Virus record (IMG/VR): IMGVR_UViG_3300005563_000063
Span: 1 to 39,259 of that record
DNA from: a virus
Length of the DNA: 39,259 nt
Direction: 5' to 3' (one strand)
This document shows positions 9,523 through 33,911 of the stretch, in pieces. Below the pieces are notes generated by a model. That model was not told where the DNA came from. It did no database searches and saw only the letters and a list, made by a program, of their open reading frames with translations. The first letter of the stretch is position 1. Each line of letters starts with the position of its first letter. Made by a program: the position numbers and the translations under genes.

Positions 9523-9661
9523 CGCATCGCTGATCCTCCCGAACGGAAAGCAGAGGGGACCTCCCCTTCGCCCTCCGCTACGTGCCTCGCCGGCTCGCCG
9601 TTCGAGTGGCCCTTCCTCCTCCTAGGGTCCGGAGGATCGGCGGCCTTCCACCGGAGTCCGC
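9523..9661 (+). other. Leader between early and late regions
   Basis: 139 bases without a gene. I see a short GGGG/CCCC inverted repeat near 9555-9567, and CCGGAG as a Shine-Dalgarno just before the lysozyme ATG. No convincing sigma70 -35/-10 pair is visible. A late promoter recognised with help from a phage factor could sit here, but this is inference. Confidence 0.35.
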
Positions 9662-10464: not shown

Positions 10465-10778
10465 CACCGGATGTAGGCTGGTACGCCCTCGGCGCGACGA
10501 TCCTGCTTGCGTTCGTCGGTTGGCTGTTCCGCACGCCCAAGGAAGCTTCCGTCGAGATAGCGACCCGTCTGGCGTCGCTGGAATCGAAGGTGGCGACGAT
10601 GGCGGAAACCTATGCCGGCATCCATGCTCGCCACGACGAAACGATGCGCGGCATGACTGCCTCTCAGCAGACGTTGACGGCCGCGTTGGACCGCCTTACC
10701 AACCGCATGGACGTGGTGCACGAGGCGTTGCTGTTCCTCAAGAGCGACGGCAATGGCGAAACACGACGTCGAGGGTGA
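10461..10778 (+). CDS. Membrane-anchored coiled-coil protein (possible i-spanin or lysis accessory)
   Basis: 105 aa, GTG in a GTGA overlap. One N-terminal transmembrane helix (residues 5-23, VGWYALGATILLAFVGWLF) is followed by a long coiled coil (about 30-95, RLASLESKVATMAETYAG... LTNRMDVVHEALLFLK). This is the topology of an Rz-type inner-membrane spanin, although orientation and partner are unproven. Confidence 0.6.
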   Translation: MTPDVGWYALGATILLAFVGWLFRTPKEASVEIATRLASLESKVATMAETYAGIHARHDETMRGMTASQQTLTAALDRLTNRMDVVHEALLFLKSDGNGETRRRG

Positions 10779-16087: not shown

Positions 16088-18358
16088 GTGGACGACCTCA
16101 GCATCCAAGGCTTGCAGGCGCTTGCCGCCAGCGACCCGCGCTCGCTCGACCTCGCGCTGCTCGACCCGCTGCGCCAGCAGATGCAGGCCGCGGGCGACAA
16201 CGCACCGCCCGAGCTGTCCGCCGCCGTCGATGCGTTGGTGGCCGAGCAGGTATCGCGCCTCAATCTCCTCGCCAAGGAGCTGGAGGAGGACTGGCAGCGC
16301 GCGGTGAAGGCCAAGCAGCCGATCGAAGACCGCTGGATCGACGACGAACGCCAGTTCAAGGGCGAGGATCGGCTCGACGGCAGCAAGGCCTACCCGGCAG
16401 ATGCAGCCGACAGCAGCAAGACAGGCCCGCAGCAGATTCAGATTCACGCCACGCGCAGCAAGACGCTCAACTGCGCGGCTCGTCTGGCCGACATGCTCCT
16501 GCCGGCGAACGACTTCCCGATGCGCGTGGACCCGCCGGACGAGCTGTCGCCCGAGGAAGTCCAGCGCTACGCGCAGGCGATGCCACAGCCGCAGCCCGGC
16601 CCCGACGGTCAGCCGCAGCCACCGCCCGACCCGAAGTCAGCCGCGCAGGCGGCGTGCAAGCAGGCGGCCGAGAAGATGCAGCAGAAGGTGTTCCAGCTCC
16701 TTCGCGACTGCAAGTTCCAAGCCGAGGCACGCAAGGCCATCTTCGACTGCGCGCGCATCGGCGTCGGCATCCTCAAAGGGCCGTATCCGACCACCAAGTA
16801 CAAGCGCACGTTCGGCCCGGACGGCTCGCTCAACATCGAGGAGCTGCCCAAGGCCGAGTTCTGCCGCGTCGATCCGTGGCGGTTCTACTACGACATGACG
16901 CCGAGCCTGCGCCAGTCGAGTGCGACCTACGAGGTACAGATTCTCTCCAACCGCGAGCTGGCCGAGTTCAAGCGCTACCCGCGCACGATCGCCAGCACGA
17001 TCGACGAGCTGCTCAAGGAGGAAGACCCGAAGTTGGAGGGTGCCTTCCGCACGTCCGTCACCAGGCGCAACCTGCACACCGACCTGCGCGAGCCGGTAGA
17101 CGACGTGTATGCCGTGCTCGAAACGCACAAGGTCATCGACCCCAAGCGCCTGCGCGACTGCCTCGGCATCGAGTGGGAGCACGAGGACATGCCGCTCCTG
17201 CACCTGTGGAGCTGCAATGGCAAGTGCATCAAGTTCAAGCTGACCCCGCTGGAGCGCGATTTCCGGGTCGACTACTACAACTTCACGATCATGCAGGCCG
17301 ACGACACGATCTTCGGCTACGGATACCCCTACCTCGCGCGCGCCAGCCAGCGCGGCCTCAACGGCGGCGTGCGGGCGATGCTCGCCAACGCTGCGGCCGG
17401 CGTTGCGCCGATCATGCTCGTCTCGCAGGGCAAGGTGCAGCCCAACCGCGAGCAGTGGCGCATGACCGGCCTCAACGTGTTCTCCGTCGAGAACCAAGGC
17501 CAGCCGTTGGAGCAGTTCTTCGCGTCCGTCAACGTACCGACGAACGTGGAGGGGAACCTCCAGATGGTGAAGTTCTTCTTGGACATGATGGACGACGACA
17601 CGTTGTTCCGTCAGATCATGGAGGACGGTGGCGCGAACCGCGAGGAAATGCCTGCCAGCGGCATGGTGATGGCGGCCAACATCGCGAATATCTTCCAGAA
17701 GATGATTGCTGCCTACGCGGACGACAACGCGTTCGAGCCGATCTGCGAACGCGCGATGTGGTGGATCAAGCTCTACCAGCCGGACGAGACAACCGGCTTC
17801 GACATGGTGCCCAAGGCGATCGCCTCGACGCAGCTCGTCGCGAAGGACCTCGCGTTGCAGCACCTGCAAATCCTGATGAACGTATCGAGCAACCCGAAGT
17901 ACGCCGGATTCTCGGACCCGTACGAGGAGTTCAGCGCGTTCGTCGCCCTCATCGACGGGCTGAACAACAAGGATGCGATCGTCCTCCCGCGCGACAAGGC
18001 GATGGCCAATCAGGCCGCGATCCAGCAGCAACAGCAGCAGGGCGACCCGAACAAGCTGGCCGAACTCCAGAGCAAGGAGCGCATCGCACAGATGCAGATG
18101 GTCGCCGAGCAGCAGAATCTGGCGCTGCGCATCCAAGGCGACATCACGGTCGAGCAGTACCGCATGAAGGTGGCCTTGATCGAGGCCGCCACCAGCCGCG
18201 AGCTGGACATGGCGGCGCTCGCTGTCGAGGCCGACAAGGCCGCCCGTTCGGACGACACCCAGCGTTTCAAGGCGGTGCTCGACGCGAAGATGAGTGCTAC
18301 GCAGCAGGTGATGGCGGAGCATAACAAGCCATCCGACCCCCACAGCCGATTCGACTGA
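16088..18358 (+). CDS. Portal protein
   Basis: 756 aa from GTG with AAAGAGAAACAGAG upstream. Its size is in the range of P22/N4-type portals and larger than T7 gp8. RSKTLNCAARLADMLLPAND (about residues 122-141), FDCARIGVGILKGPYPTTKY (about 221-240) and SATYEVQILSNRELAEFKRY mark a portal core. The C-terminal region is a long helical, Gln-rich segment (QQQQQQGDPNKLAELQSKER... AALAVEADKAARSDD), consistent with an extended barrel reaching into the capsid. It lies between terL and the scaffold, as expected. Confidence 0.88.
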   Translation: MDDLSIQGLQALAASDPRSLDLALLDPLRQQMQAAGDNAPPELSAAVDALVAEQVSRLNLLAKELEEDWQRAVKAKQPIEDRWIDDERQFKGEDRLDGSKAYPADAADSSKTGPQQIQIHATRSKTLNCAARLADMLLPANDFPMRVDPPDELSPEEVQRYAQAMPQPQPGPDGQPQPPPDPKSAAQAACKQAAEKMQQKVFQLLRDCKFQAEARKAIFDCARIGVGILKGPYPTTKYKRTFGPDGSLNIEELPKAEFCRVDPWRFYYDMTPSLRQSSATYEVQILSNRELAEFKRYPRTIASTIDELLKEEDPKLEGAFRTSVTRRNLHTDLREPVDDVYAVLETHKVIDPKRLRDCLGIEWEHEDMPLLHLWSCNGKCIKFKLTPLERDFRVDYYNFTIMQADDTIFGYGYPYLARASQRGLNGGVRAMLANAAAGVAPIMLVSQGKVQPNREQWRMTGLNVFSVENQGQPLEQFFASVNVPTNVEGNLQMVKFFLDMMDDDTLFRQIMEDGGANREEMPASGMVMAANIANIFQKMIAAYADDNAFEPICERAMWWIKLYQPDETTGFDMVPKAIASTQLVAKDLALQHLQILMNVSSNPKYAGFSDPYEEFSAFVALIDGLNNKDAIVLPRDKAMANQAAIQQQQQQGDPNKLAELQSKERIAQMQMVAEQQNLALRIQGDITVEQYRMKVALIEAATSRELDMAALAVEADKAARSDDTQRFKAVLDAKMSATQQVMAEHNKPSDPHSRFD

Positions 18359-18584: not shown

Positions 18585-19724
18585 ATGAACACCGAACACG
18601 ACCCCTATGCGGACGCCATTGCCGGCGACGGCTACAAGGCATGGAAAGAGGCCGACGAACCGTCGCCGGCCAGGCCGGCCGAGGCCGCGCCTGCTACGGC
18701 GCCCGAGCCTGCCGCTGCGGAACCCGTGCAGGCCGCACAGGACGCCGCAGGACAGCCGCGCAATCCGGACGGCACCTTCGCTACCAAGCCGGCGGACGGC
18801 GCTCCTGCGACCGCACAGGCGGCGGAACGGCTACCGTTCGATGGGTTTGACAAACTGGACCCTGCGGTTCAGAATCATTTTCGCCGATTGCAGTCCGAGG
18901 CCGCCGATTTCAAAGAGCGGTACATCCGGACGAACGGACAGCTTCATCGTTACAGAAACGGGAACCCAGCCTCCCTTCCCGCTCGTCAGACCCCGGCCCC
19001 GGCACAAGCCCGCGCCGACAATCTTGCCGATGCTCGTGCTGCCACGGCGGCGATCCCCCAAGGAGCGGATCGACAGGCCGCGCAGGCGCAGCTCGACAAG
19101 TGGGAACAGCACGTCAAGGCATATCCCGACGACGCTGCAGCGATCGACCAGCGAATCCAAGCCTTCCGAGACGATCTGGCCCGTGGCATCGATCCGATGC
19201 AGCGGGAATTGCAGTCCTTGCGCGAGACCGTGCAGGAATTGCGCAGCGGCTACGCCGCGATCGAGTCGGAGCGCGCCGAACGGCGGATGCACGAAGCATT
19301 CGACACGATCGGTGAAGTCGCAGGCGACAACTGGCGTCAGATTTGCGGGATCGAGGACGAGCACGGCAACCGCATTCCGGACGACAAGCGACAGTGGCAT
19401 CCCGAGTTCGCCGCATGGGTCAACGGTCACGACCCGGACGAGGCGAGCTACCTGTGGGACACCCTGCGCCATCCGTCGCCCCGCGTGGTCGGTGGCGTGA
19501 TTGCCCGATTCAACCGCGAAGTGTTTGCGCTGGACAACCCGAGTACGGCCGCCCCTTCCACGCCGGACCTCACCCAGCGCCGACAGGAAGCCTTGAGAGA
19601 CACCACGCCACGCACCGGAGGCGCCCGCACGACGGGCAACGCGGTGTGGACGCCGAGCGGCGATCCGTACGCGGATGCGATCGCAGGCGGCGGCTACGAC
19701 GAGTGGAAGCGAAACACCGCTTAA
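18585..19724 (+). CDS. Scaffolding-like protein with the same motif at both ends
   Basis: 379 aa, AGGGATAACGC before ATG. Composition is Ala/Pro/Glu-rich and disordered at residues 22-80, with a coiled-coil centre (about 150-250: QRELQSLRETVQELRSGYAA). It directly precedes the major capsid gene, the standard scaffold position. DPYADAIAGDGYKAWK (6-21) near the N-terminus and DPYADAIAGGGYDEWK (360-375) at the C-terminus are nearly identical, so each end may bind the same surface of the coat or portal. A small basic tail (KRNTA) follows the second copy. Confidence 0.8.
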   Translation: MNTEHDPYADAIAGDGYKAWKEADEPSPARPAEAAPATAPEPAAAEPVQAAQDAAGQPRNPDGTFATKPADGAPATAQAAERLPFDGFDKLDPAVQNHFRRLQSEAADFKERYIRTNGQLHRYRNGNPASLPARQTPAPAQARADNLADARAATAAIPQGADRQAAQAQLDKWEQHVKAYPDDAAAIDQRIQAFRDDLARGIDPMQRELQSLRETVQELRSGYAAIESERAERRMHEAFDTIGEVAGDNWRQICGIEDEHGNRIPDDKRQWHPEFAAWVNGHDPDEASYLWDTLRHPSPRVVGGVIARFNREVFALDNPSTAAPSTPDLTQRRQEALRDTTPRTGGARTTGNAVWTPSGDPYADAIAGGGYDEWKRNTA

Positions 19725-19736
19725 GGAAACGCCATC

Positions 19737-20759
19737 ATGGCCCTCACTACCTATGCACAGCAGAACGTTCCCAACGGTTCTGTCAACCCGCAATACTTCA
19801 TCAACAAGGACCTGCTGGAGTCCGCCGACACCTTTCAGGTCATCGACGAGTTCGCGGACGTCGACACGCTCCCGCCGAACTCCAACGCGTTCCTCGCCAG
19901 CCGTCGCTACCTGACGCCGGCCCCGGACGCGACCCCCGCGCCGGAAGGCACGAGCAAGGAAGCGCGCACGCAGATTTACGAGGACTTCACGGTCCAGATG
20001 TTCCGCTACTCGGAGATGTTCCAAATCTCCCGGCAGACGCTCAAGCTCACCCCGTTCCCGGCCCTCAAGGGCGCCCGCAGCGAAATGGCGAAACTCGTCA
20101 TCCTCGACCGCGAACGCGTGCGCTGGAATGCGCTCCTCACCCTCCCGAACATCGCCTACAACTCGGTCGCCGTCGGCGCCATCAACCAGGTGAACGGTCC
20201 GGTCACGGCCTCCCGCCTCCAGATGCTGACCCGCGCCATCCTCAAGGCGAAGGGTAGCTATGTCTCGGTCGGGCAGGGCGGCACGAACAAGGAAGGCACG
20301 AATCCGGTCGAAGCCTCGCTGGTGTTCCTCGGCCACACCGACCTCCAGCCGGACATCCGCGCACTGCCGGGCTTCCAGCCGTCGATCAGCCTCCCGAGCG
20401 GCAAGCCCAAGCACAAGACCCACTTCGGCAACTGGCTGAACATCGAGTTCTACCTCACGCAGGAAGCGCCGATCCTCACGGGTTCCGGTGCGTCCTCGAC
20501 CACGCTCATCAACACCGCGGGCGTGGCGGATGTCTATCAGAACATCCTCATGGCGAAGAACACGATTCGCACCGTCAAGCTCGGCGGTTCGGGCAAGGAA
20601 GGCGGCGGCAATCTGGAGACGCAGCTCCTCGACCAGCCGGACAAGTACGATCCGACGAACGCCTACGCGGACCTCGTCTGCACGTGGTGGGACGCGGCCT
20701 ACATCATCACCAACGACTGGGGCTGGCGTCTGTACACCGGCGCCACGCTGACGCCGTAA
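19737..20759 (+). CDS. Major capsid protein (N4 gp56-like)
   Basis: 340 aa, AAGGAAACGCC before ATG. Contains YFINKDLLESADTFQVIDEF, an N-arm-like start, FLASRRYLTPAPDATPAPEG, VTASRLQMLTRAILKAKGSY and a 'LGHTDLQPDIRALPGFQPSI' segment. These resemble the N4-gp56 family of HK97-fold capsid proteins. Position after the scaffold and before a decoration-like gene and a strong terminator fits the most abundant virion protein. Family assignment is by pattern only. Confidence 0.85.
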   Translation: MALTTYAQQNVPNGSVNPQYFINKDLLESADTFQVIDEFADVDTLPPNSNAFLASRRYLTPAPDATPAPEGTSKEARTQIYEDFTVQMFRYSEMFQISRQTLKLTPFPALKGARSEMAKLVILDRERVRWNALLTLPNIAYNSVAVGAINQVNGPVTASRLQMLTRAILKAKGSYVSVGQGGTNKEGTNPVEASLVFLGHTDLQPDIRALPGFQPSISLPSGKPKHKTHFGNWLNIEFYLTQEAPILTGSGASSTTLINTAGVADVYQNILMAKNTIRTVKLGGSGKEGGGNLETQLLDQPDKYDPTNAYADLVCTWWDAAYIITNDWGWRLYTGATLTP

Positions 20760-22115: not shown

Positions 22116-22865
22116 ATGGCCGCGATGACGTACCTGCAACTCTGCCAGTACGCGCATCGGTACCTGCGTTCGGGCAACGCGGCCGGCGGTTCGCAGCCGA
22201 CGGCCATCCCGCCTGCCGCAACAAGCGATCAGGTGGCGTTGGACATCGCGGACGCGATCCCGCGTGCGTGGGAGTGGTTGCAGAACGAGCATCCCTCGTG
22301 GGACTTCATGCGCAAGCAAGGCGTCCTGCAACTTACGTCCGGCCAGCGCACCTACACGCAAGCGCAGATTCAGGTGCAGATCGCGGACTACTACAGCTTC
22401 ATCCCGTTTTGGGCCGAGAACAATCAGCCTTACTTCCTGCTCTACGACGGCGGCGCCTCGTTCGAACAGGACTACGTCTATCCGTTCGTCGAGTACATCG
22501 ACTGGCGCGGCTTTCGCGACCGCCTGCCGCGCCCAGCGGCCGCACAGCCGAACTTCCTCACCGAGCAGCCGAGCCTGACGCTGGAGCTGGACCCCACGCC
22601 CGCCCTCGCGCCGTCCGGTAGCAATTGGAAAATCAAGTTCGATTACCGCATCAAGAACCAGATCTTGAGCGCCGGCACCGACGTGCCGATCCTGCCGCCG
22701 ATGTACCATGAGGCGATTGCGTGGATCGCGATCCGCATGATCTGCGAGTCGCGCATGAACACAGGTCCCCTGCTGCAAGCCTCGATCGCCGAGTGCAATC
22801 GCTACATGGACCGCCTGAAAGCCCGTTTCCTGCCGCGCGTTCAGGTGGACACCTGCTATGCCTGA
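22116..22865 (+). CDS. Head-tail adaptor protein
   Basis: 249 aa. The pattern of a helical bundle (TYLQLCQYAHRYLRSGN, ALDIADAIPRAWEWLQNEHP) with an inserted beta region and the C-terminal 'LPPMYHEAIAWIAIRMICES' helix resembles podovirus adaptors such as P22 gp4 and T7 gp11. It sits immediately before the nozzle-like gene and overlaps it by 8 bases. It would bridge the portal and the tail nozzle. Confidence 0.7.
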   Translation: MAAMTYLQLCQYAHRYLRSGNAAGGSQPTAIPPAATSDQVALDIADAIPRAWEWLQNEHPSWDFMRKQGVLQLTSGQRTYTQAQIQVQIADYYSFIPFWAENNQPYFLLYDGGASFEQDYVYPFVEYIDWRGFRDRLPRPAAAQPNFLTEQPSLTLELDPTPALAPSGSNWKIKFDYRIKNQILSAGTDVPILPPMYHEAIAWIAIRMICESRMNTGPLLQASIAECNRYMDRLKARFLPRVQVDTCYA

Positions 22866-25800
22866 AACCTTGGTGTCCATCGAAGGCGGCGTCGACCTTC
22901 GCACCTCGTCGATCAATTCGCCGAAGGGGTCGCTCACCAACTGCCTCAACTTCGAGAAGGACCAAGGTGCCGGCCTCGTGCGCCGACTCGGCTGGACGCG
23001 CTACGATGGGCGCGTGTCGGGGCCGGAAATCGACGATGCAGTCATCTGCTTCTACAACTCGGCCAACAAGACCGGCGCTTTCATCTACGGCGAGCAGGTG
23101 ACGATCTTCTCCGCCGGCCGCCCGACGCTGAATGCGATCTTCATCGGCGACGCAGCACCGACCGGCAGCTTCCCGAGCGCGCTGGCGCTGGCCTACCCCA
23201 TCCAGACCTTCACGGACTGGACGGACGTCACGGCCTATCCGAATGCGACGGTCATCACGGGGGTGTCCTCGGGCGCACAGGTGTCGGTTCTCACGACGCC
23301 GCCCGTGCTCATGAACGTGTCGGACATCACGATCCCGTGGTACGACAACATCAAGAACGTGATTCAGCTCGCGCACTCGGCCTCGGTGGGCAAGGTGCCG
23401 GGCCGGAACGAAAGCCCGATCGATGCCGAGTTCACGTTCGGCAACAACTCCTACGCGATCCACGATTGCGTGACGTACACCTTCACCGCCGGCATGGGTA
23501 CGCCCTATCCGCTGGAGGGCCATGTCCTCGTCGAGAATGCGACGGGCAACATGGTCGGCAAGATTCTGTCCGTCAAGCTCAACTCCGGCGACTGGACGAG
23601 TGCGGATGCGGCCGGGCAGTTCGTCGTCTACGACTACCCGCTGGGGCAAGCCTTCCCGGCGACCAATGCGTTCCTCGACCTCTATTCGGCCGACGGGACG
23701 ACGCTGCTGCTCGCGCGCGTCTGCCGGTTCGGCACGACCTCAGCCCTTAGCGCCGATCCGAACAACACACGCGCGCTGCTGTACCAGACGTACGAGCAGT
23801 ACGTAAAGAACCAGTCCTACGCCAAGGCCTACGGCGCGCAGATCATCGACCCGCCGAAGTGGCAGGTGCCGAGTCCGCCGACGTGGACGCGTCCGCGCAT
23901 CACGCGCGAACTCCCGTACTACCTGAGTTCCACCGGCTCGCCGGCCGGGTTCGGACCGAAGGGCCAGCTCGACTACTCGATCTACGAATACAGCCGGCAG
24001 GGCTTGACCGCCAATATCCAATTGCTCGATCCCGTCAACACGGGCGAGGTGTTCCCGACGGTCGCCGCGACGCCGGGCGGCTGGGTCAACCCGAACAACA
24101 TCCTCGTGCAGGACGGCGCGGTAGCGACGTGGACCAGCTCGGCGGCCGCGGGTCAGGTCACGTCCTTCCTCACGGGCAAGACCTTCAACTTCGCGTCCAT
24201 CCCGGACGACAGTACGATCCTCGGTGTCGTCGTGCGCCTGCGCGCGGACGGCAATGCGGCCGGCACGAACGGGTGGATCGATAGCGAAGTGCGCCTCACG
24301 TCGAGCGCCTTCCCGAACGGCATCGGATCGCAGAACAAGGCGAATGGCTTCATCGTCCCCGGCGCGCTCACCGATCGCACCTACGGCGGATCGACCGATG
24401 CGTGGGGCGAGCAGCTTACCACCACGATCATCAAGGACCCGTCCTTTGGTGTTGCAGTGCGGTGGCGGAAGTTGAACGGCACCATCGCATCGGCCGTGCA
24501 GGTCGACGCGTACGCGATCACGGTCTACTACACGCCCACCACGCGCACGGTCTGGATTCGCGACCCGACGATCGTCGCGGCGCCCGCGCAGGACGTTGCG
24601 GCGAACATCATCCACTACTGCGTCGACACGGGCGATGCTTCGTTTGTCGTCAAGGACGCGGTCGGCGTCCTCACGGTCGTCATCGGTACCAACGAATACG
24701 AAGGCACGGCAGCCGGCAAGATTCGGCGTCTGAAAGCCGGCGACGAAATCCGCACCGGACCCTCGAATCCCGCAACGAACGCCGCGACGGGCACGCTGCT
24801 GGCGTACGTGGGTGCCGAGGACTATCCCTCGACCTTCCCGCCGGGCGCAGCGATCGACGCGAACATCTCGCGCTACGAGGTCATCGACGCGAACTTCTGG
24901 GACGTGCCGGAAGGACGCGCCGCCTACATCGCGAACGGCGCCGAGTACGCCACGATGTGGGATGGCACGTTCACCGTGCGCATCCGCACCGGCCGCCCGG
25001 TCGCCTCGGACAACCCGCGCCACCTCGCGGCGCACCTCGGTTATTTGCATCTCGGCTTCGCTGCAGGCGCTGTCGTCAACACGGCAACGGGTAAGCCCTT
25101 GACGGTCGTCGGTGCGATCGGTGCGGCGGTGTACAACTTCGGCGAGCCGATCACCGGCATGCTGACCTTGAACGGCCAGACGCTCGGTGTCTGGACAGAT
25201 CGATCCACGCGCGGATTGCAGGGTAACAGCCCTACCACGGCAGGCGGTGGCTCTGGCTATACGCCGATGATGATTTCGCCCGCGATCAACTGCATCGAGT
25301 ACACGCTGGTGAACCTCGTGGGGCAGGCGGTGTGGACGAGCTACCGCGGCGTCGAGACGGTGCGGACGGTCAACGCCTACGGCGACTTCGAGACGCTGCC
25401 CTTGAGCGCTGCTGCACAGCTCTGGCTGCAAGGCCGACTGCAAGCGGACCTCTCGATCGGCTCGCGCCCCTCGCGCGCGCTGTATGCGATCGGCGTGCGC
25501 AACAAGCGCCAGTATCGCCTCTACTTCGCCGACGGCTATGTGTACACGCTCACGATGTTCGACGCGGGCGACCAGCCGGTGTCGACGTTCCAGCGCGTGG
25601 AGCGGCCCAACTCGATGACAACGGGTACGGTGCCGAACACGTTCCCGACCAACGCGGGCGTGATCCGGCACATTTACAGCGGCACGCTGTCGGACGGCAA
25701 GGAAGTCATCCTCGCCTCGTTCGAGAACCAGAACAGTACGGTTGTGACGACGGGCATCACGCCGTACTTCCCGTACGTCGTCAAGATCGACAGCGGTTAC

Positions 25801-26235
25801 GCGGACGATGTGGCGTCGTACATGCCCTGCTTCATGGAGCTGGCGGCGATCTATCCGGCCTATCCGACGATCGACAACCAATGGCAGTCCGCGACGGTGT
25901 TCGTCAACGCGTACGGCGGCAGCCAGTTGACGCTCTACACGCGCGTGAAGTTCGACGCGCCCATCATCGACTTCACCTTCTTCGAGGAAGTCATCAAGTC
26001 CGACGACCCGGATGTCCGCTCGGAAACCCAAATCCTTCCCCTCATCGAGTACCGCGCCTACATCCCCGTGCCGCAGCGGTATCTGAAGTTCGACACGCAG
26101 GCGGAAGGGCGCATGCTGAAGCTCCTGATCGACGGCACGCAGAAGCCCGCGCTGCTGAACCCGGCGTTGGTGCCGGTCCGTATCACGCACATCTCGCTTA
26201 CCACGTCCAATCCGTTGACCACGGACAAGACGTAA
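22858..26235 (+). CDS. Tail nozzle-like large structural protein
   Basis: 1125 aa, overlapping the adaptor gene. The start, VSIEGGVDLRTSSINSPKGS then LTNCLNFEKDQ...LVRRLGWTRYDG, matches the opening of podoviral nozzle proteins (T7 gp12 and P22 gp10 class: 'GG...NSP.G....NF......G..RR.G'). The rest is beta-rich and Gly/Thr/Asp-rich. It is longer than T7 gp12 (about 790 aa), so it may carry an extra receptor-binding part. No separate tail fibre or spike gene was found. The nozzle call is moderate; the receptor-binding part is inference. Confidence 0.75.
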   Translation: MPETLVSIEGGVDLRTSSINSPKGSLTNCLNFEKDQGAGLVRRLGWTRYDGRVSGPEIDDAVICFYNSANKTGAFIYGEQVTIFSAGRPTLNAIFIGDAAPTGSFPSALALAYPIQTFTDWTDVTAYPNATVITGVSSGAQVSVLTTPPVLMNVSDITIPWYDNIKNVIQLAHSASVGKVPGRNESPIDAEFTFGNNSYAIHDCVTYTFTAGMGTPYPLEGHVLVENATGNMVGKILSVKLNSGDWTSADAAGQFVVYDYPLGQAFPATNAFLDLYSADGTTLLLARVCRFGTTSALSADPNNTRALLYQTYEQYVKNQSYAKAYGAQIIDPPKWQVPSPPTWTRPRITRELPYYLSSTGSPAGFGPKGQLDYSIYEYSRQGLTANIQLLDPVNTGEVFPTVAATPGGWVNPNNILVQDGAVATWTSSAAAGQVTSFLTGKTFNFASIPDDSTILGVVVRLRADGNAAGTNGWIDSEVRLTSSAFPNGIGSQNKANGFIVPGALTDRTYGGSTDAWGEQLTTTIIKDPSFGVAVRWRKLNGTIASAVQVDAYAITVYYTPTTRTVWIRDPTIVAAPAQDVAANIIHYCVDTGDASFVVKDAVGVLTVVIGTNEYEGTAAGKIRRLKAGDEIRTGPSNPATNAATGTLLAYVGAEDYPSTFPPGAAIDANISRYEVIDANFWDVPEGRAAYIANGAEYATMWDGTFTVRIRTGRPVASDNPRHLAAHLGYLHLGFAAGAVVNTATGKPLTVVGAIGAAVYNFGEPITGMLTLNGQTLGVWTDRSTRGLQGNSPTTAGGGSGYTPMMISPAINCIEYTLVNLVGQAVWTSYRGVETVRTVNAYGDFETLPLSAAAQLWLQGRLQADLSIGSRPSRALYAIGVRNKRQYRLYFADGYVYTLTMFDAGDQPVSTFQRVERPNSMTTGTVPNTFPTNAGVIRHIYSGTLSDGKEVILASFENQNSTVVTTGITPYFPYVVKIDSGYADDVASYMPCFMELAAIYPAYPTIDNQWQSATVFVNAYGGSQLTLYTRVKFDAPIIDFTFFEEVIKSDDPDVRSETQILPLIEYRAYIPVPQRYLKFDTQAEGRMLKLLIDGTQKPALLNPALVPVRITHISLTTSNPLTTDKT

Positions 26236-26245
26236 AGGACCGTCC

Positions 26246-26974
26246 ATGCCTACCGCACCGCCCCTCTCGCAATTCAACGTCAATGCGCCAATGGTGAACG
26301 GCATTTCGCAGACCCCGACCGGTGTTGCGCTGACGAGCGTCGGCAACAACGAACTGCTGAGCAACCAGCTTGGCAACCTCATGCGCAGCGACAATCCGCT
26401 CGTGCAGAACGCGCAACAGAACGCCCGCGCGTTCGCGGCAGCCCGTGGCGCCGGCCTCTCGGGCAGTCTCTACAGCGACGCGGCCACACGCGCCGCGTAC
26501 GACCAGATGATGCCGATCGCGCAGTTCGACGCGGGCCAGTACGCGGACGTGCGCGACCGCAATCAGGAGGCGCTGAACCAGCAGAACATCGAACGGATGG
26601 GCAACCAGACGTCCGTGCAGGTCGCTGGCATCGGTGCGCGCGCACAACACGATGCCTTGATCGAGCAGGCCCGCCAGTTCGACATCAACCAGCAGAACCG
26701 TCAACAGAACCGCGAGTGGGAGCTGGCGGACCAGCGCGCCGCCGCACGGGCGAACCAGCGTTCGGCCACTTTCAACACACTCCTTCAAGCGGCCTTTTCC
26801 GATCCGTCGATCTGGCGCGATCCGCAAGGTGTGATGGGCTTCTTCAACACCTATTCGTCGAACATCGACGACATGCTGTCGAACTTGTTCCCAGAATATC
26901 AGGAGCCGGGCACAGCCGCGCCCGACACGAACCCGCGACCGGGCTACGCGCTGCCCGCAGGAGGTACGCCGTGA
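26246..26974 (+). CDS. Ejection-type virion protein with two P[LI][SA]QF motifs
   Basis: 242 aa. PLSQF at residues 6-10 and PIAQF at 90-94 are two instances of the motif shared by this block. The body is helical and rich in Gln, Asn and Ala (NPLVQNAQQNARAFAAARGA, RQFDINQQNRQQNREWELAD), as in internal or ejected proteins of podoviruses. The C-terminal tail is Pro-rich. First gene after the nozzle. Confidence 0.7.
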   Translation: MPTAPPLSQFNVNAPMVNGISQTPTGVALTSVGNNELLSNQLGNLMRSDNPLVQNAQQNARAFAAARGAGLSGSLYSDAATRAAYDQMMPIAQFDAGQYADVRDRNQEALNQQNIERMGNQTSVQVAGIGARAQHDALIEQARQFDINQQNRQQNREWELADQRAAARANQRSATFNTLLQAAFSDPSIWRDPQGVMGFFNTYSSNIDDMLSNLFPEYQEPGTAAPDTNPRPGYALPAGGTP

Positions 26975-27432
26975 GCCGTCCCGTGAAGCCCTTCAACGGA
27001 CCACGCCGCCAGGGCGGTTGGATTGGACTCGCCGTCGCTGTCGTCGGCGCCTACGCGTCGTCCCGTTCGCAGAGTGCGCAGAACAAGGACAAGGACAAAA
27101 TGTCCTACGAAAGCCAGCGCGACCTCTCGAATCTGGACTTCCAGCAGCGCCAGTGGTTGCAGGAACAGGCCCGCGCGTGGCAGTTGCAGGACAAGCAGTT
27201 CGACCTGAACTACAAGGAGAACGCGATTGCGGGCTTCCGCGACGCGGCTCCCCCCAACAGCGTGGGCGACAACGGCGCGTGGGGCGCCCCGCCTGCGCCC
27301 ACGTCGATCGACACGTCCAACCTCGCCCGCACGCAAGCGAACGGACAGGCGGCGATTGTCGATCCGCGCACGGGCCAGCCCGTGAACGCGAATGCGGTAC
27401 CCTTGTCGCAATTCGGAGGTGGGTATGGCTGA
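26971..27432 (+). CDS. Ejection-type protein with membrane segment and C-terminal PLSQF
   Basis: 153 aa, GTG in a GTGA overlap with GCAGGAGGTAC upstream. A Gly/Ala/Val hydrophobic segment (residues about 16-31, GGWIGLAVAVVGAYAS) could insert in a membrane. A Gln-rich coiled coil (LDFQQRQWLQEQARAWQLQD) and a disordered end follow, finishing PLSQFGGGYG (PLSQF at 144-148). Likely part of the genome-ejection complex. Confidence 0.65.
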   Translation: MSRPVKPFNGPRRQGGWIGLAVAVVGAYASSRSQSAQNKDKDKMSYESQRDLSNLDFQQRQWLQEQARAWQLQDKQFDLNYKENAIAGFRDAAPPNSVGDNGAWGAPPAPTSIDTSNLARTQANGQAAIVDPRTGQPVNANAVPLSQFGGGYG

Positions 27433-27937
27433 CATGCAGCAACCGATGCCCAAGCAGGCACCCGAGCAGGGCAGCGCGCCGGATGGCGGCGATCCCTCGC
27501 AAATGGTCGGCTACATCCCCGAGGAGTATCCGGCCAAGATCAAGACCTACCTCGCCGCCGCGCGCAAGGTGTATCTGCGCGACGAGACCGCGGCGATGAT
27601 TCGCAAGATGCTCGGCGCGGCGAACGATCCCGCGCATGCGCTGGCGCTGTTCGTCGGGAAGCTGATCGACAGCCTCGAAACCAAGCTCGGGCCGCTGACG
27701 GACGACGAGCACGACAAGGTCGCGCTGATTATCTGCGGTTGGCTCGCCTCGACGATGCAGGCGATGGGCATGCCCGGCATGGACAGCCCCGAGGGGCGGC
27801 AGGACTTCATGGGCCGCATCCTCACCCAGCTCGACAGCATGCAGCAGGAGCAGCCGCAGGAAGGTGCCGAGGACGCGCAGCAGGCGCCGATGAGCCAGTT
27901 CCAGCCGCAGCAGGCGCCGCCGGGAGGTGTCCCGTGA
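27425..27937 (+). CDS. Small helical ejection-type protein with PMSQF
   Basis: 170 aa from ATG at 27425 (CGGAGGTGGGT upstream). Disordered Gln/Pro-rich N-terminus; a helical domain at about 30-130 (YPAKIKTYLAAARKVYLRDE, DKVALIICGWLASTMQAMGM); then a disordered C-terminus with PMSQFQP at 155-161. It overlaps both neighbours, so stoichiometry with them may be coupled. Confidence 0.65.
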   Translation: MADMQQPMPKQAPEQGSAPDGGDPSQMVGYIPEEYPAKIKTYLAAARKVYLRDETAAMIRKMLGAANDPAHALALFVGKLIDSLETKLGPLTDDEHDKVALIICGWLASTMQAMGMPGMDSPEGRQDFMGRILTQLDSMQQEQPQEGAEDAQQAPMSQFQPQQAPPGGVP

Positions 27938-28716
27938 GCGGCGATATCTGGGCCGCCATCGCAGGCGGCGCGAACTACATCGGCCAGCAGCAGAAGGACG
28001 CGCAGGACGAGGAACGCTGGCAGCAGCGCTACGAGCTCATGCGCCAGCAGCAGATGGAGGACGAGAAGGCGAAGCAGCGCTTCTTGATGTCGATCCGTCC
28101 GCCCGAGACGCGCAAGGTCAACACCACGGACACGGCCGGAAAGCCGATCGTACGCACCGAGGAATGGCGCCTCAACGGCGATCAAGGCGCGTGGGCGAAC
28201 GTCGGCGAGGCGCCGGACATCAATTTCGAGAAGTTGGACGAGGCGCAGCGTCACAACGTGGAATCCGAAGGTCTGCGCCGCGAAGCGGATACCGCCAAGC
28301 GTGAGAATCAAATTACCCGTCTCGGGTTGGAGCGCGAACGACTGGAAAACACGCGCACGAAAGTGGGCGCAGGCAAGCTCGTCCGTAAGGTCAATCAGGA
28401 CGGCTCTGCTGTCTATGGCACCGTGACGGATGGCGTGTTCAAGCCCGTCACGGACGAGGAAGGAAACCCACTGGACACCACGGCATGGCGCCCGCGGCAG
28501 GGTAAGCCCGGCGATGGCGATGCGATCGGCCCTCCGCGCGGCAAGGTGCAACCCGTATTCGTCGATCCGAGCGAGCAACGTCCGATGTCGCAATTCCAGC
28601 CGCAGGCCAAGCCGCAAGCTGCGCCCGCTCCGAATCGCGCGCCGCCGGATGGAACGGTGGTCTACAAGAACGGCCAGAAGTACATCGTACGCAACGGCGT
28701 ACCGGTGCCTGCATGA
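27934..28716 (+). CDS. Ejection-type coiled-coil protein with PMSQF
   Basis: 260 aa, GTG after GGGAGGTGTCCC. Starts with MSGDIWAAIAGGANYIGQQQ, similar in style to the membrane-like start of the 26971 product. A charged helix (ERWQQRYELMRQQQMEDEKA) and a helical stretch (residues 108-150) follow. PMSQFQP at 217-223 lies in a Pro/Ala-rich linker before a small beta end (GTVVYKNGQKYIVRNGVPVP). Same motif architecture as its neighbours. Confidence 0.65.
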   Translation: MSGDIWAAIAGGANYIGQQQKDAQDEERWQQRYELMRQQQMEDEKAKQRFLMSIRPPETRKVNTTDTAGKPIVRTEEWRLNGDQGAWANVGEAPDINFEKLDEAQRHNVESEGLRREADTAKRENQITRLGLERERLENTRTKVGAGKLVRKVNQDGSAVYGTVTDGVFKPVTDEEGNPLDTTAWRPRQGKPGDGDAIGPPRGKVQPVFVDPSEQRPMSQFQPQAKPQAAPAPNRAPPDGTVVYKNGQKYIVRNGVPVPA

Positions 28717-28877
28717 ACGACCGTGCGCTCGCGTGGACGATGCTCTACGGGTCGATCCTCGGAATCTCCCACCATCCCCGTGCGATGCAGGAAGGTGAGC
28801 CGATGAGCGCCGCCGAGGCTGCACGCAGGACGGACGATGCCATGCGTGAGTGGGAGGCCCGTTTCGGGCAGGAATAA
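28713..28877 (+). CDS. 54-aa hypothetical protein
   Basis: ATGA overlap with the previous gene. Short helical protein (MNDRALAWTMLYGSILGISH, SAAEAARRTDDAMREWEARF). It contains EPMSA but not the full P[LMI][SA]QF motif. Ends 6 bases before the 1382-aa gene. Function unknown. Confidence 0.6.
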   Translation: MNDRALAWTMLYGSILGISHHPRAMQEGEPMSAAEAARRTDDAMREWEARFGQE

Positions 28878-28883
28878 GCGGAC

Positions 28884-31800
28884 ATGGCCCCCGAAGTCGA
28901 TTGGTCCCAATTCACCACCGAGCCTCCGCCGGAAGCAGCGCCGGCGACACCGGAGGATGTGGACTGGTCGCAGTTCACGGAGCAGCCGCCCGACTTCGGC
29001 AACGTCCAGTCCGGCTCCGCGTCTGCGCCGCTTGCGCAGTTCCAGCCGAGCGCGTGGGAGCGCATGAAGGCGAGCGCACGCCAGATCGGCGACCAGATGG
29101 CGACCGGCGCGCAGGCGATCTTGCAGGGCGGTGACTACGAGGTCGCGCCCGACGATCCGCGCCAGCTCGTGTCCGATCCGGCCGTGTTCGGCCGTACGGT
29201 CGCGGGCGACGTGACCGGCATGGCGCAAATCGCCTACGACTACGGCACGCCGGCCGGCATTACCACCAAGTTGGCCGAGACATTCGGCGCGCCCAAGGTG
29301 GACCCCGTGCGCGCGTTGCTCGGCAAGCAGGCCGAAGCGGTCGAGTTCAACCCCGAAACGATGCGAGCGCAGTCACCGCGTGGCGAGGCGTTCGCCTCCG
29401 GCGTCGGGCACCTGCTCGCCGGCTACATCCCTGAATCCCGCCTCGCGAAAAGCCTCGACGACCTCCTGTCGCCAGAAGCGCGCGCGGTGATGAACGGTAG
29501 CCGGGAGGGGCGCGAGCTGGCCTTGACCGGCGACCTGGGCCCCGAAGCGCAAGGGAGCGCGACCGCCGATGAAATCCTGTCCCGAGCCGTTGCCGAACAG
29601 CCCCGTCCGCCTGCTGTTCCCGAGCGACCCGCTGCCGAGGTGGTGCCAGCCGAAGCAGCCGAATCCGTTCCGGGCGAAACTGGAATCGCTGTTCGGGGCA
29701 CGGAGAGCGCTCCTGCGCCCGCACCGGAAGCGGTCCTTGCGCCTCGTGCCGAAATCCCCGAAGCCGCTCCAGCGCCCTCCGGTGAAGCCGTAGAGGTATC
29801 GGAGCTATCGCCGGAGGATGTGCCGGAGGAATTCCGTGCGCGCCTCCAGCAACAAGAGACGCCGACGGCCGAAGCGACGCCCGAGGAGTTGGCCGCGTTC
29901 GAGCGCCAGCGCCAGCCCACGGAACCGGATGCGACGTTCGAGAACAACGCCAGCGGCGAGAGCGCGGCGAGTCTGGAAGCGCAGCACCGCATTGCGGACG
30001 AGAAGGCGGCCGGGCAGACGCGTGCGCTGATCGAGCCGAACGGCGAGGTGCGCCCGTTGGTCGGTGTCGATGCCGTGGATACGGTCGCCCGTCCGGGGCA
30101 GGTGATCGTCCAGCGCGGCATCGGCAAGGACGACTGGACGATCCTGTCCCACGGCGACAACCTGCCGCCTCGCCTTGCGCAGGCGCGGGTGAACGCCACG
30201 CGCAACAGGCTCGACGAGCTCCATGCCGCGCAGAACGAGGATCGCGGTCCGCTACCGGGTCCGATCGACACCAGCACGATTCCTTTCGAGTCCGCACAAG
30301 CCCTGCCGCCACGGCTGAGGAGCGCCCATGCCCGCACAGTACGAAGCGATACGCGACCGCCTGCTGTCGCAAGGGAAGTCCCGCAAGGAAGCCGAACGGA
30401 TCGCAGCGGCGACGTTCAATTCCCGCCGCCCGAAGGGCGCTCCATCCCTGAACGACTACGTGCAGGCGGAGAAGGAGCACCGCCCGCTCGCCCAATTCCA
30501 GCCGAAGGCGGCGGACGAGTAGAACCGCCCTCCGGGCGCCTGCCGCCAAGCGGAGAGGGCGGCAACCCCCGCCTGCCGTCCCGCCCCGGCGAAATCGCCA
30601 AGGTGCGCGGCATCTGGGATTCGGCCGTCGACGTGCTCAAGCGCTCGCCCGAGTTCCGCCCGCTCGGCGAGGCGGTGGAACGGCACTACGACACGATGCA
30701 GCGCCGCGAAGGCGAGGCGTCGAAGTTCCTGCGGGAAGCCTTTGCCGACAATCGTACGCTGAGCGATCCATTGAAGCGCCAGCGAAAGGCCGATCGCGAT
30801 GCGTTCGCCGAGTACCAAGCTGCGATCCAGAACGGCCGTACGCCGCCCAAGCTCACGCCCGGCGCGCAGAAGATGGTGGACGCGTGGCGCGGCTTCGCCG
30901 AGCACTCGGGCGCCGAGAATCAGCGCGTTGGCGTCAAGGTGTTCGATCCCAAGCTCGGCAAGTCCCGCCCGATCGGCCGCGCAAAGGACTTCTTCCCGCG
31001 CACGTTGAAGCGCGAGTACGCGGACGCGATGCGCGATCCCGGCAAGCACAAGGCGGCGTGGGAACGGATGGTCGGCATCCTCAAGGACAAGGGCGTCATC
31101 GACACGGACGAGGAGGCCGGCCGGTTCCTGCGCGATCACTTCGACGACACGAGCTCCAACGACTACTTCGCCGGCATCGAGAAGGCGCGCGGTGAGCCGT
31201 TGCCGGAAGAACTCTACGACTACAGCACGGACGCGGCGGTCCGTTACGCGAAGCGCTGGGCCGAGCGCCTGAGCCAGATTGAAGCGTTCGGGCAGAAGCT
31301 CGGCGAGTACGACAAGGACCTGTTCGACGTGTTCAAGGGCAAGACCACGGACGAGGGGACCAAGGCCTACATCGATGCCGTCGGCAAGCTTGTCTACAAC
31401 GTGCGCAGCAAGGACGACTTCGCCCGCTTCGCGCAGACCTTGAATACGATCGCGACGGGTTTGCAGCTCGGCAACCCGGCGACCTCGGCGCTGAACCTGA
31501 TCGGCGGCCTGTTCCAGAACGCGTCCACGTTCGGCGTATCGAACATGATCCGCGGACTGGCAGACCTTCGCCAGCTCTCCAAGGCGATCAAGGACGCGCA
31601 CGACATCGGCATTCTGCGCGGCGACTTCCTCGACCTCTTGCATGACAACGAGGTGATGGACGTGCCGCGGATCGCGAGCAACGCGACGAAGGTCGCGCTC
31701 TCGGTCGGAGGCTACAACCTCACCGAGTCGATCAACCGCATGCACGCGTACATGACCGCCAAGGCATGGCTGCGCGAAGCATTGAAAGCGAAGCCTGGCA

Positions 31801-33032
31801 GCGGCGCGGCGCGGCAGTACCAGCGCTTGCTCGACAAGTCCGGCGCGGACGTGGCCAAGCTCAAGGGCGGCGATGCTGCCGAGACGGAGAAGTTCTATCG
31901 CAAGGCGGTCAACGAGGCGCAGTTCTCCTACAACCTCACGCAGACGCCCGTCTACGCGAACACGCCGGTCGGCAAGTTCCTGCTGAAGTATCAGAAGTTC
32001 GGCCTTCAGATGTCGCGGTTCTACTGGCAGAACGTGATGGAGCCGTCCATCACGTCGCCGAATGCGCGTACGCTCGGCAACCTCCTGCGCTACTGGATCG
32101 CGGCAGCGGTAGGTGGCGGCCTGATCCTGTCGCTGCGGCAAAACCTGTTCGGCTATCAGAGCAGTGCGCCGGAGACGAGCGAAATCGAGAAGGCGTGGCA
32201 GGACAAGAAGTACCGCGACGCCATCACCCTCGCCGCGCATCGCGCGTGGGTGGGCAATCTCGCGATCGGCGGTCTCGGGTTCTTCTCCAACTATGTCCAG
32301 CTCGGGCAGGACATCGCGGACCGCCAGCGCGTGAAGAACCCGCTGAACCCACCCGGCATCGCGCCGATCGTCGGCCTCGCTAACCTCGGCCTCACGCTCT
32401 ACGACCAGAAGGGAACCGGCGTCAAGCGTGCGCTGGAAGAATTCGCCACGGCAAACGTGTCGGCCTACCGAACGGGCAAGCGCCTGCTGGGATTTGCGAC
32501 CGGCTCGGACAGTGCGGATCGCGACTATGCGTTCGCGAAGAAGATGACGCGCCGGTACGCGGACGATCGCAACATCGAGGCCAAGCGCCGCGCGCCGTCC
32601 GACATCATCGCGACGCCTATGACGCCCGTGAACAAGGACATCCACGACGCGCTGATCGTGGGCGATGCGAAGGAGGCCAAGCGCCTTGCGCGTGCCTACC
32701 TCGAATCGCTCGACACCGCGGCCGAGCAGAAGGCGGCGTGGAACAGCATGAAGGCCAGTGCCCGTGCGCGCCAGCCGACGCTCGTCAGCGTGTCCCCGTC
32801 CGCCGCCGAGCGCAGGGACTTCCTCGCGTGGGCGCGCGAGCACTTGGAGAAGCCCGAGTACGAGCGCATCACCCGCCTCGACGACACCTACCGCAACGCC
32901 GCGATTGAAGCGGGACTATTGCGGGAGGAGAATGCGGACAAGCTCGACCGCGCGGCCGGCAAGCGCGAGCAGGAGCGGCAGGAAAAGCTCTCGCCGGATG
33001 CGCTGGATAAGATGCTCGGAGACACCGAATGA
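28884..33032 (+). CDS. Large ejection (internal virion) protein, 1382 aa
   Basis: The longest gene. Its N-terminus has VDWSQF at 5-10 and again at 26-31, then PLAQFQP at 49-55. Residues about 210-360 are low-complexity Pro/Ala/Glu-rich. A Pro/Gly/Arg-rich linker (about 480-570) overlaps the nested gene at 30328. From about residue 575 a large helical region follows (VLKRSPEFRPLGEAVERHYD... GLQLGNPATSALNLIGGLFQ... TESINRMHAYMTAKAWLREA), resembling the helical domains of phage large internal or polyvalent proteins. Hydrophobic segment at about 1066-1085. Probably stored in the capsid and ejected with the DNA. No catalytic motif identified. Confidence 0.75.
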   Translation: MAPEVDWSQFTTEPPPEAAPATPEDVDWSQFTEQPPDFGNVQSGSASAPLAQFQPSAWERMKASARQIGDQMATGAQAILQGGDYEVAPDDPRQLVSDPAVFGRTVAGDVTGMAQIAYDYGTPAGITTKLAETFGAPKVDPVRALLGKQAEAVEFNPETMRAQSPRGEAFASGVGHLLAGYIPESRLAKSLDDLLSPEARAVMNGSREGRELALTGDLGPEAQGSATADEILSRAVAEQPRPPAVPERPAAEVVPAEAAESVPGETGIAVRGTESAPAPAPEAVLAPRAEIPEAAPAPSGEAVEVSELSPEDVPEEFRARLQQQETPTAEATPEELAAFERQRQPTEPDATFENNASGESAASLEAQHRIADEKAAGQTRALIEPNGEVRPLVGVDAVDTVARPGQVIVQRGIGKDDWTILSHGDNLPPRLAQARVNATRNRLDELHAAQNEDRGPLPGPIDTSTIPFESAQALPPRLRSAHARTVRSDTRPPAVAREVPQGSRTDRSGDVQFPPPEGRSIPERLRAGGEGAPPARPIPAEGGGRVEPPSGRLPPSGEGGNPRLPSRPGEIAKVRGIWDSAVDVLKRSPEFRPLGEAVERHYDTMQRREGEASKFLREAFADNRTLSDPLKRQRKADRDAFAEYQAAIQNGRTPPKLTPGAQKMVDAWRGFAEHSGAENQRVGVKVFDPKLGKSRPIGRAKDFFPRTLKREYADAMRDPGKHKAAWERMVGILKDKGVIDTDEEAGRFLRDHFDDTSSNDYFAGIEKARGEPLPEELYDYSTDAAVRYAKRWAERLSQIEAFGQKLGEYDKDLFDVFKGKTTDEGTKAYIDAVGKLVYNVRSKDDFARFAQTLNTIATGLQLGNPATSALNLIGGLFQNASTFGVSNMIRGLADLRQLSKAIKDAHDIGILRGDFLDLLHDNEVMDVPRIASNATKVALSVGGYNLTESINRMHAYMTAKAWLREALKAKPGSGAARQYQRLLDKSGADVAKLKGGDAAETEKFYRKAVNEAQFSYNLTQTPVYANTPVGKFLLKYQKFGLQMSRFYWQNVMEPSITSPNARTLGNLLRYWIAAAVGGGLILSLRQNLFGYQSSAPETSEIEKAWQDKKYRDAITLAAHRAWVGNLAIGGLGFFSNYVQLGQDIADRQRVKNPLNPPGIAPIVGLANLGLTLYDQKGTGVKRALEEFATANVSAYRTGKRLLGFATGSDSADRDYAFAKKMTRRYADDRNIEAKRRAPSDIIATPMTPVNKDIHDALIVGDAKEAKRLARAYLESLDTAAEQKAAWNSMKASARARQPTLVSVSPSAAERRDFLAWAREHLEKPEYERITRLDDTYRNAAIEAGLLREENADKLDRAAGKREQERQEKLSPDALDKMLGDTE
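30328..30522 (+). CDS. Nested 64-aa gene inside the large ejection gene (+1 frame)
   Basis: The ATG at 30328 is preceded by GAGGAG at 30317-30322, an ideal Shine-Dalgarno spacing. The protein starts MPAQYEAIRDRLLSQGKSRK then EAERIAAATFN, which resembles free-standing small phage proteins of the 'Y.AIRD.L...G.S...A.RIAAA.FN' type. It ends HRPLAQFQPKAADE, with PLAQF at 53-57, the motif of the surrounding virion proteins. By hand count, third positions are about 83% G/C in this frame but about 47% in the host gene's frame over the same bases, so the nested frame looks like the coding one. It is probably translated from its own start. Confidence 0.7.
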   Translation: MPAQYEAIRDRLLSQGKSRKEAERIAAATFNSRRPKGAPSLNDYVQAEKEHRPLAQFQPKAADE

Positions 33033-33379
33033 ACGTCGTCACCGCCAACCCGTACGTAAGCCCCAGCTCCCAGCCACAATCGTCCGTCATGCAACAGTTC
33101 CCTGACTCAGGAGTCCAAGCCATGCCCCTCATGCCCACCATGCAGCCTCCGCAGGCGCCCGGTATGACGCCGGGCCAGCGCGCCATCGCCAACTACCGGA
33201 TGAACCCCAACGCCCCGCGCCTCGGCCCCACGTCGCCCGGCATGGCGCCGACGCCGGCCACGATGCCCGTGCAGGGCCAGCCGGCCCCGAGCATGGGGAC
33301 GAACGCGGGCGCGATGGGCGCAGGCCGGATTCGTCCGCCCTCGCCGAACTCGCTCCGCCCCGGCTACCGGACGCGCTGA
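33029..33379 (+). CDS. Disordered Pro/Met-rich virion-region protein
   Basis: 116 aa, ATGA overlap with the 1382-aa gene after CTCGGAGACACCGA. Almost entirely Pro, Met, Gln, Ala and Gly (MPLMPTMQPPQAPGMTPGQR) and predicted disordered. VMQQF at residues 20-24 is a possible divergent copy of the block motif. Probably a structural accessory of the ejection complex. Confidence 0.6.
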   Translation: MNVVTANPYVSPSSQPQSSVMQQFPDSGVQAMPLMPTMQPPQAPGMTPGQRAIANYRMNPNAPRLGPTSPGMAPTPATMPVQGQPAPSMGTNAGAMGAGRIRPPSPNSLRPGYRTR

Positions 33380-33380
33380 C

Positions 33381-33911
33381 GTGAGCTGGCTAACGGATGG
33401 GCCGCTGAGCCGCGTGGGAGGCGATTCCTACGCCGCGCAGGGTGCGCGCGCAGGTGCCGCCGCGGGTCCGCTCGGAATGGCCGCAGGCGCGCTCGGAGGC
33501 TGGCTGTACGGCCGCTATCAGGCGGGTCGGTTGCAGGACATGTTCCAGCAGAACAACCAGTCGTTCAGCGAGCGACAGGGATCGCGCACGAATTGGGACT
33601 TGCAAGGCGACTCCCCGCTCGCGCAATTCGGCAACTTCGGCCACGGCTCTCCGGCCGACATTCCGGACGGCGGCAACATCGGCACCGAACTCGGGATCAC
33701 CGACTGGAGCCAGCCGGACACGAACGAGGACGACAAGCCGCAGCACGAGAGCTTGAAGGAGTCGCGCGAGAACGACTCTCGCGCGTTCGCGCTACAGGGC
33801 GTCTCCAACTTCCTCGTCGGCGGCCAGCCCGTCATCAACGGAAGTCGCGGCTACGGCGCTTTCGGCGGAAGCGGGCAGGGCTATTTTCAGGGTCGCAAGC
33901 CCGGCAAGTAG
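33381..33911 (+). CDS. Last late gene: Gly/Ala-rich protein with PLAQF
   Basis: 176 aa. GTG start, one base after the previous stop. A Gly/Ala-rich hydrophobic stretch (residues about 21-45, GARAGAAAGPLGMAAGALGG) is followed by a Gln-rich part, PLAQFGNFGHG at 79-89, and DWSQ at 108-111, echoing the VDWSQF repeats of the 1382-aa protein. It ends Gly/Tyr-rich (GYGAFGGSGQGYFQGRKPGK), like the GGGYG tail of the 26971 product. The leftward gene 33792-34040 overlaps its 3' end. Confidence 0.65.
   Translation: MSWLTDGPLSRVGGDSYAAQGARAGAAAGPLGMAAGALGGWLYGRYQAGRLQDMFQQNNQSFSERQGSRTNWDLQGDSPLAQFGNFGHGSPADIPDGGNIGTELGITDWSQPDTNEDDKPQHESLKESRENDSRAFALQGVSNFLVGGQPVINGSRGYGAFGGSGQGYFQGRKPGK

Follow-up and report, generated by a model that had tools for sequence, protein, structure and literature searches.

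The window analysed here, the full 39,259 bases of IMG/VR virus record IMGVR_UViG_3300005563_000063, comes from an uncultured short-tailed phage whose late genes include a block of putative ejection proteins. Seven of these proteins each carry a copy of the same five-residue tag, P-[LMI]-[SA]-Q-F, which is kept in diverged relatives and changes in concert on unrelated proteins within each genome. We favour, at somewhat better than even confidence, the reading that this tag is a position-flexible docking signal through which one assembly partner recruits ejection proteins into the phage head.

Sites and statistics of the tag

The gene set of the window, built from open reading frames (ORFs) and a codon model, comprises 56 predicted proteins, eight of them in the block (g1 to g7 and the nested gene n) and 48 elsewhere; all block genes and tag sites lie on the + strand. 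The first gene, g1 (26246..26974, 242 residues, called from ORF and codon model and conserved in 7 diverged genomes), carries PLSQF at residues 6-10 (26261..26275), and g2 (26983..27432, 149 residues, with a predicted N-terminal hydrophobic stretch and a long helix) carries PLSQF near its C-terminus (27400..27414). PMSQF(QP) is found near the C-terminus of g3 (27425..27937, 170 residues; tag at 27887..27901) and in the C-terminal third of g4 (27934..28716, 260 residues; tag at 28582..28596). The giant 1382-residue protein g5 (28884..33032), modular in its C-terminal half, has PLAQF(QP) near its N-terminus (29028..29042); the 64-codon gene n (30328..30522), which is preceded by an AGGAG ribosome-binding site and lies in the +1 frame within g5, has PLAQF(QP) near its C-terminus (30484..30498); and g7 (33381..33911, 176 residues) has an internal PLAQF (33615..33629). 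The proline-rich g6 (33029..33379, 116 residues) is without an exact tag and contains VMQQF (33086..33100), a possible degenerate tag with VMNQF aligned in the relative recorded as L008 and L019.

The original prediction had counted eight exact instances of P[LMI][SA]QF in seven separate frames, and both figures are reproduced, with no ninth instance in six frames. The second copy in g1, PIAQF(D) at 26513..26527, is however probably a chance match and not a tag: it falls within the body of g1, which is conserved and probably helical, and relatives have PIAQT, PIATA, PIASE or PLASE in this column, with PVAQF in L018 only. After its removal the genuine set probably consists of seven sites in seven proteins (g1-g5, n and g7), which in gene order read PLSQF, PLSQF, PMSQFQP, PMSQFQP, PLAQFQP, PLAQFQP and PLAQF. 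The longer form QFQP was correctly assigned to four sites (27887, 28582, 29028 and 30484), as was the variable placement of the motif, which is N-terminal in g1, C-terminal in g2, g3 and n, and internal in g4 and g7.

The tagged proteins had been described as otherwise unlike one another, and an all-against-all phmmer comparison at E values up to 10 detects no similarity; homology among the block proteins is rejected. The motif was also said to be missing from head, terminase and early proteins; the exact pattern occurs in 7/8 block proteins and in 0/48 others. The portal was considered as a further carrier, since the relaxed pattern matches PLEQF in it, and was rejected, as this site is not kept in relatives. 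When counted against a shuffled-sequence model, as had been proposed, the motif has a mean of 0.009 instances in shuffled block proteins, and seven proteins were reached in 0 of 20,000 trials. In an unbiased search with free choice among gapped patterns of 4-5 residues, scored against shuffles, P-h-x-Q-F ranks first in the block (14.1 versus a shuffle maximum of 6.4). Head and tail genes, two early-gene sets and the blocks of P22, T7, StenR_269 and the relative L011 gave nothing comparable in this search; one of the early-gene sets scored 7.6, with shuffles up to 7.2. The codons behind the tag vary between copies (CTC/TTG/CTT/CTG, TCG/AGC and CAA/CAG), and the constraint therefore acts on the protein: the tag sites are under protein-level selection.

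Conservation and concerted change

Alignment-based scans of viral contigs yielded six clearly diverged relatives and a number of near-identical records (L008 is the same contig as L019, and L017 the same as L009). Identity in the 1125-residue protein encoded just ahead of the block is 57% for L018, 59% for L019, 65% for L009, 44% for L005, and 43% for both L006 and L010. The INPHARED phages include no DNA match or close DNA relative of the window, and no relative was found in the bacterial genome contigs scanned. In all six diverged relatives the tag is kept in syntenic proteins (4-7 tagged proteins per relative, compared with 7 in the window), so that the motif is retained along with the proteins, the outcome on which the original prediction had staked its reading. 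The tag is conserved across 40-70% identity, and both its presence and its conservation are firm. In the unbiased search with curated genes the tag is also the top pattern in L018 (18.6), L019 (12.4), L005 (13.3) and L006 (12.9), with shuffle maxima, including that of the window, of 5.6-6.8; L009 has it on top in a cruder gene set (12.4 versus 6.8), and L010 is marginal (7.1 versus 6.3).

Each genome has its own form of the tag. L018 has PMAQFAGG, PMNQFAGG, PMGQFGGG, PMGQFSGG and PMSQFAG, and PMSQFAG again in n; L019 has mostly P[LM].QFD, and L009 has PL[SA]QF in all five of its tagged proteins. L005 and L006 have GTLxQF or ATLxQF in g2, g3, g4, n and g7, with PP[IL]SQF retained in g1, and L010 has forms of the GTL.Q[LVM] type (TLGQL, TLPQV, TMPQM and TLKQV). 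Followed gene by gene, the g1 site aligns with PxxQF in L018, L019, L009, L005 and L006 and with TLGQL in L010; the g2 site with PLAQFG* (twice), TLRQF, TLPQF and TLPQV, and with PMNQF in L018; the g4 site with PMGQF and PLSQF in the relatives having P-type tags; the g5 site with PLAQFD in L019, PMSQFAG in L018 and PLSQFA in L009; and the g7 site with PMGQF, TLGQF and TLPQF.

This concerted change was evaluated by comparing the tags of different gene families within and between genomes, with genome labels permuted within each family. The within-genome excess of resemblance was reached in 0/5000 permutations. A repeat confined to the alignment-anchored families (g1, g2, n and g7), designed to avoid picking sites by resemblance, gave 5/10,000 for the five core residues and 0/10,000 with flanks. 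Windows displaced 12 to 48 residues from the tag show no within-genome excess, and genome composition is therefore not the cause. The tag changes in concert on unrelated proteins within each genome, as would be expected if there were a single recogniser; this is the best evidence for a docking or cargo role.

The tag also moves within proteins. In g3 it is C-terminal in the window, L018, L019 and L009 and N-terminal in L005 and L006, where a second copy, GTLPQM, stands at the C-terminus; in g4 it is displaced in L005, L006 and L010, with GTLSQF or GTLKQV elsewhere in the protein. Despite this movement it is always present in both. Several copies end 1-5 residues before the stop codon (PLAQFG*, TLPQFAG* and PMGQFGGG*). 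With few defined positions, a location in flexible segments, conservation while the flanks vary, and positional turnover, the tag has the properties of a short linear motif. AlphaFold2 single-chain models of g1 and g2 are weak overall, with a mean predicted local distance difference test (pLDDT) score of 52 and 54, respectively; their tag regions (residues 1-33 of g1 and the last residues of g2) have pLDDT <50, a low confidence of the kind given to flexible tails.

The tag at 30484 is outside the reading frame of the 1382-residue protein and belongs to n. The codon model changes to the +1 frame exactly at n and reverts afterwards. L018 (15812-15994), L019 (17454-17645), L005 (9717-9899) and L006 (18150-18341) have a counterpart nested in the same relative frame, each with GGAGG or AGGAG shortly upstream of the ATG, and in four genome pairs the windows with the largest excess of +1-frame over g5-frame identity coincide with n. 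Judged by the codon switch, the nested conservation with ribosome-binding sites and the +1-frame identity excess, n is a real, conserved overlapping gene. The tag stands at its end in 5/5 genomes that have n (APMSQFAG, SPMSQYD, GTLKQFQS* and GTLSQFRP in the relatives). The n protein also has a weak, below-cutoff resemblance to DUF7218.

A further repeated element, DWSQF, occurs twice at the N-terminus of g5 (28899..28913 and 28962..28976, both +) and is possibly related to the tag. It is doubled in L019 and L006 as well, and L005 and L018 have elements of the WDDE/WDTPP type instead. The repeated DWSQF may be a second short tag; a query with a made-up DFSQF repeat found nothing useful.

Gene neighbourhood and distant podoviruses

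The block is preceded on the + strand by genes for the terminase large subunit (14624-16072), the portal (16088-18358), a scaffold-like protein identified by its position (18585-19724), and a major capsid protein of the N4-gp56 type (19737-20759), the N4 type being assigned by analogy with an annotated relative. Tail proteins follow, then the 1125-residue protein (22858-26235, +), and directly after it the tag block g1-g7. The 1125-residue protein matches a protein of L011, which in turn matches the stabilization/head-closure proteins of StenR_269, vB_Pun_Y3 and PTXU04, and through L011 it would be of the P22 gp10 type. The scaffold-like protein has YADAIAG.GY..WK near both its N- and C-terminus, which might suggest a capsid-binding element at each end; L009 has a similar duplicated pattern.

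The block follows a head-closure/stabilisation gene in the late operon, as the ejection blocks of P22 and T7 do, and its place after the P22-gp10-like protein and ahead of the giant protein is the same in StenR_269. Searches of PHROGs and Pfam gave no match to a curated family, nor to a characterised ejection-protein family, for any block protein. The only matches to a profile of g1 are block proteins of StenR_269 (E 7.5e-7) and Y3 (E 4.4e-7), both of them uncharacterised late-block proteins beside a giant protein; no characterised ejection protein is among them. We call the block proteins ejection proteins because of the gene order and the neighbouring giant protein, and distant homology likewise suggests that they would be internal to the virion.

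Distant podoviruses offered several side observations. In L028 (14200-16024) g2, g3 and g4 have QGL[LM]S.Q at their C-termini, a candidate tag of another clade; its score of 8.3 was reached by 0/40 shuffles in one run, and the shuffle maximum was 10.1 in another. In L035 (16204-19739) GLL[ST][QE] occurs in g1-g4 at shuffle level and is a lead only, and the other distant podovirus blocks tested for tags were at or near shuffle level. A similar G[LM][MVA] stretch, frequently with GG after it, ends the g3-position proteins of very different podoviruses (L028:14253-14861, L038:8947-9447, L016:21108-21794, L059:15799-16359 and L060:3822-4316), with endings such as QQGLMSGQ, QQGLMAALGG, PQGMAAAMGGA, QQGMVSPLVGGM and PTGLMARRK. 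Several distant relatives have a small gene between the counterparts of g1 and g2 (L028:12760-13194, L035:17332-17715, L038:7689-8126 and L014:21064-21516), which the window lacks and which in vB_Pun_Y3 carries the annotation N-acetyltransferase. In L005 the giant protein (7793-10576) contains a stretch, LYHASLSPDIEQFD..GQGIYF, that by eye resembles ADP-ribosyltransferase-like domains of injected phage proteins; it is not in the giant protein of the window, which suggests modular exchange in this protein.

A proposed docking tag and its alternatives

In the mechanism that we propose, the tag would be a short linear docking motif, with one [PT]-[LMI]-x-Q-F copy per protein on a flexible terminus or linker. 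Its clients, g1-g5, n and g7 of the late block that follows the gp10-like tail protein, would be read during head assembly by one phage-encoded partner, which would thereby collect them in the procapsid as proteins destined for ejection. This partner would most likely be the scaffold, or a portal or core organised by the scaffold. One recogniser is the best explanation because the tag is short, flexible, mobile within proteins and changing in concert, and a head-assembly protein is the simplest recogniser because the clients lie in the presumed ejection block. The original prediction had likewise read the motif as a docking or cargo tag, and this part has come through comparison with relatives and with chance expectation and gains from the concerted change; that the partner is the portal, scaffold or core, and that the tagged proteins are loaded into the capsid, we infer. 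We would likewise expect a single reader, acting in head assembly, and clients located inside the virion.

Several points weigh against this proposal. The status of the clients as internal proteins rests on gene order and distant homology, and only seven independent genomes were sampled. The giant g5 of L005 and L006 is without a [PT]LxQF site. L011, StenR_269, Y3, PTXU04, HMO-2011, P22 and T7 have the block with no statistically supported shared tag. Ejection proteins therefore do not require the tag in general; within the reach of the statistics, it is clade-specific.

Conservation and concerted change would fit any common phage partner, and the tag could instead be an assembly contact during or after ejection, with no role in loading, through which the proteins bind each other, or the giant protein, and form a trans-envelope conduit. 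The hub might be the giant g5 or the small g6, both of which belong to the block; however, g5 is itself tagged in most genomes and would be hub and client at once, and the same tag on a 64-residue nested protein and on proteins with disordered tails is simpler as a loading tag. We rank the conduit next, as an unlikely explanation. A shared protease would likewise cause concerted change, and a maturation-cleavage signal for a phage or host protease, which the original prediction had offered as its alternative, has precedents: T4 and giant phages have cleavage motifs common to their head proteins (PMC5694885), and the N-terminal 20 residues of P22 gp7 are removed by host OpdA (record note). Cutting at sites 1-5 residues before the stop would, however, be of little effect, V, L and M are tolerated at the F position in L010, and a Pfam search of the head-region proteins found no known (prohead) protease family, although this leaves the absence of a divergent protease unproven. 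On these three grounds cleavage is the less likely reading, and we give it a low probability.

If the tag bound a host protein (a membrane, replication or transcription factor) once inside the cell, where ejected proteins act, a shift of host could alter the tag on all proteins jointly. Yet seven structurally different proteins, one of them of 64 residues, would need the same target, and the analysis established no resemblance to a host-binding motif; a host partner is thus about as improbable as cleavage, if not slightly more so. A nucleic-acid repeat (regulatory, recombination or ribosome-loading) that incidentally encodes the motif might be suspected from the several copies near gene ends, but the synonymous codon variation contradicts it and copies are internal and N-terminal too; it is rejected as highly implausible. 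The tails are P/Q-rich, and their composition might be thought to generate the motif by chance. Composition-preserving shuffles never attain the count, the unbiased search contradicts this origin, and so do the conservation at 40-70% identity and the lack of effect in adjoining windows, which leaves chance or composition bias with a negligible probability, and it too is rejected.

Among known systems, the capsid-targeting sequence (CTS) of T4 is the closest parallel to the proposed docking tag: it is a short sequence common to several different internal head proteins, which directs them into the prohead (PMC5694885) and has been described as sufficient for foreign proteins (PMC9024508, PMC5694885). 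The tag of the window would work like such a sequence and is likewise found on several putative internal proteins, yet it is not of the T4 type. The T4 sequence is an N-terminal propeptide of 10-20 residues removed by the prohead protease, whereas the window tag has about five residues in N-terminal, internal or C-terminal position (N-terminal only in g1 here and in g3 of L005 and L006), with no E at the tag site as an xxE-type prohead-protease site would have, and no cleavage or protease in evidence; its phage is short-tailed and has another head lineage. In P1, DarB is a giant injected protein whose first 30 residues suffice to bring a reporter to the head, with truncations implicating residues 6-10 (PMC9024508). 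The N-terminus of DarB contains no [PT]LxQF, and that study found no consensus among the Dar proteins (PMC9024508), whereas a consensus common to unrelated proteins is the central result for the window.

P22 and T7 share with the window a block directly after a gp10-like head-closure protein, with small proteins and then giant ones, and in P22 the incorporation of ejection proteins requires the scaffold and not the portal (PMC4992974); a docking site for the P22 ejection proteins has been proposed to lie at the inner end of the scaffold column (PMC12005531). In contrast to the window, P22 gp14/7/20/16 and the T7 internal proteins have no shared short motif in the unbiased search. The Poorviridae/StenR_269-like podophages resemble the window in their N4-type major capsid protein, gp10-like stabilisation protein, homologous g1 and equal block layout, and differ in that their blocks are without a statistically supported shared tag. 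A broader generalisation is possible, which we hold tentatively and with some doubt: short-tailed phages would load ejection proteins through a five-residue passport that works in any position, is not cleaved and is recognised by a single head-assembly protein, and any gene, even an overprinted one of 64 codons, would join the cargo by gaining the passport. The code would drift by clade, and other podovirus lineages would have other codes, such as QGL[LM]S.Q at the three C-termini in L028.

How short-tailed phages select their diverse ejection proteins for packaging is largely unknown, and for P22 only the need for the scaffold is known. A five-residue tag common to seven proteins turns packaging into a question of point mutation and peptide binding. 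The tag also offers a sequence rule for recognising ejected cargo when a phage is uncultured, and this extends to small nested genes that annotation overlooks. If the tag suffices, chosen proteins could be loaded into the phage head, as has been done with the T4 and P1 signals.

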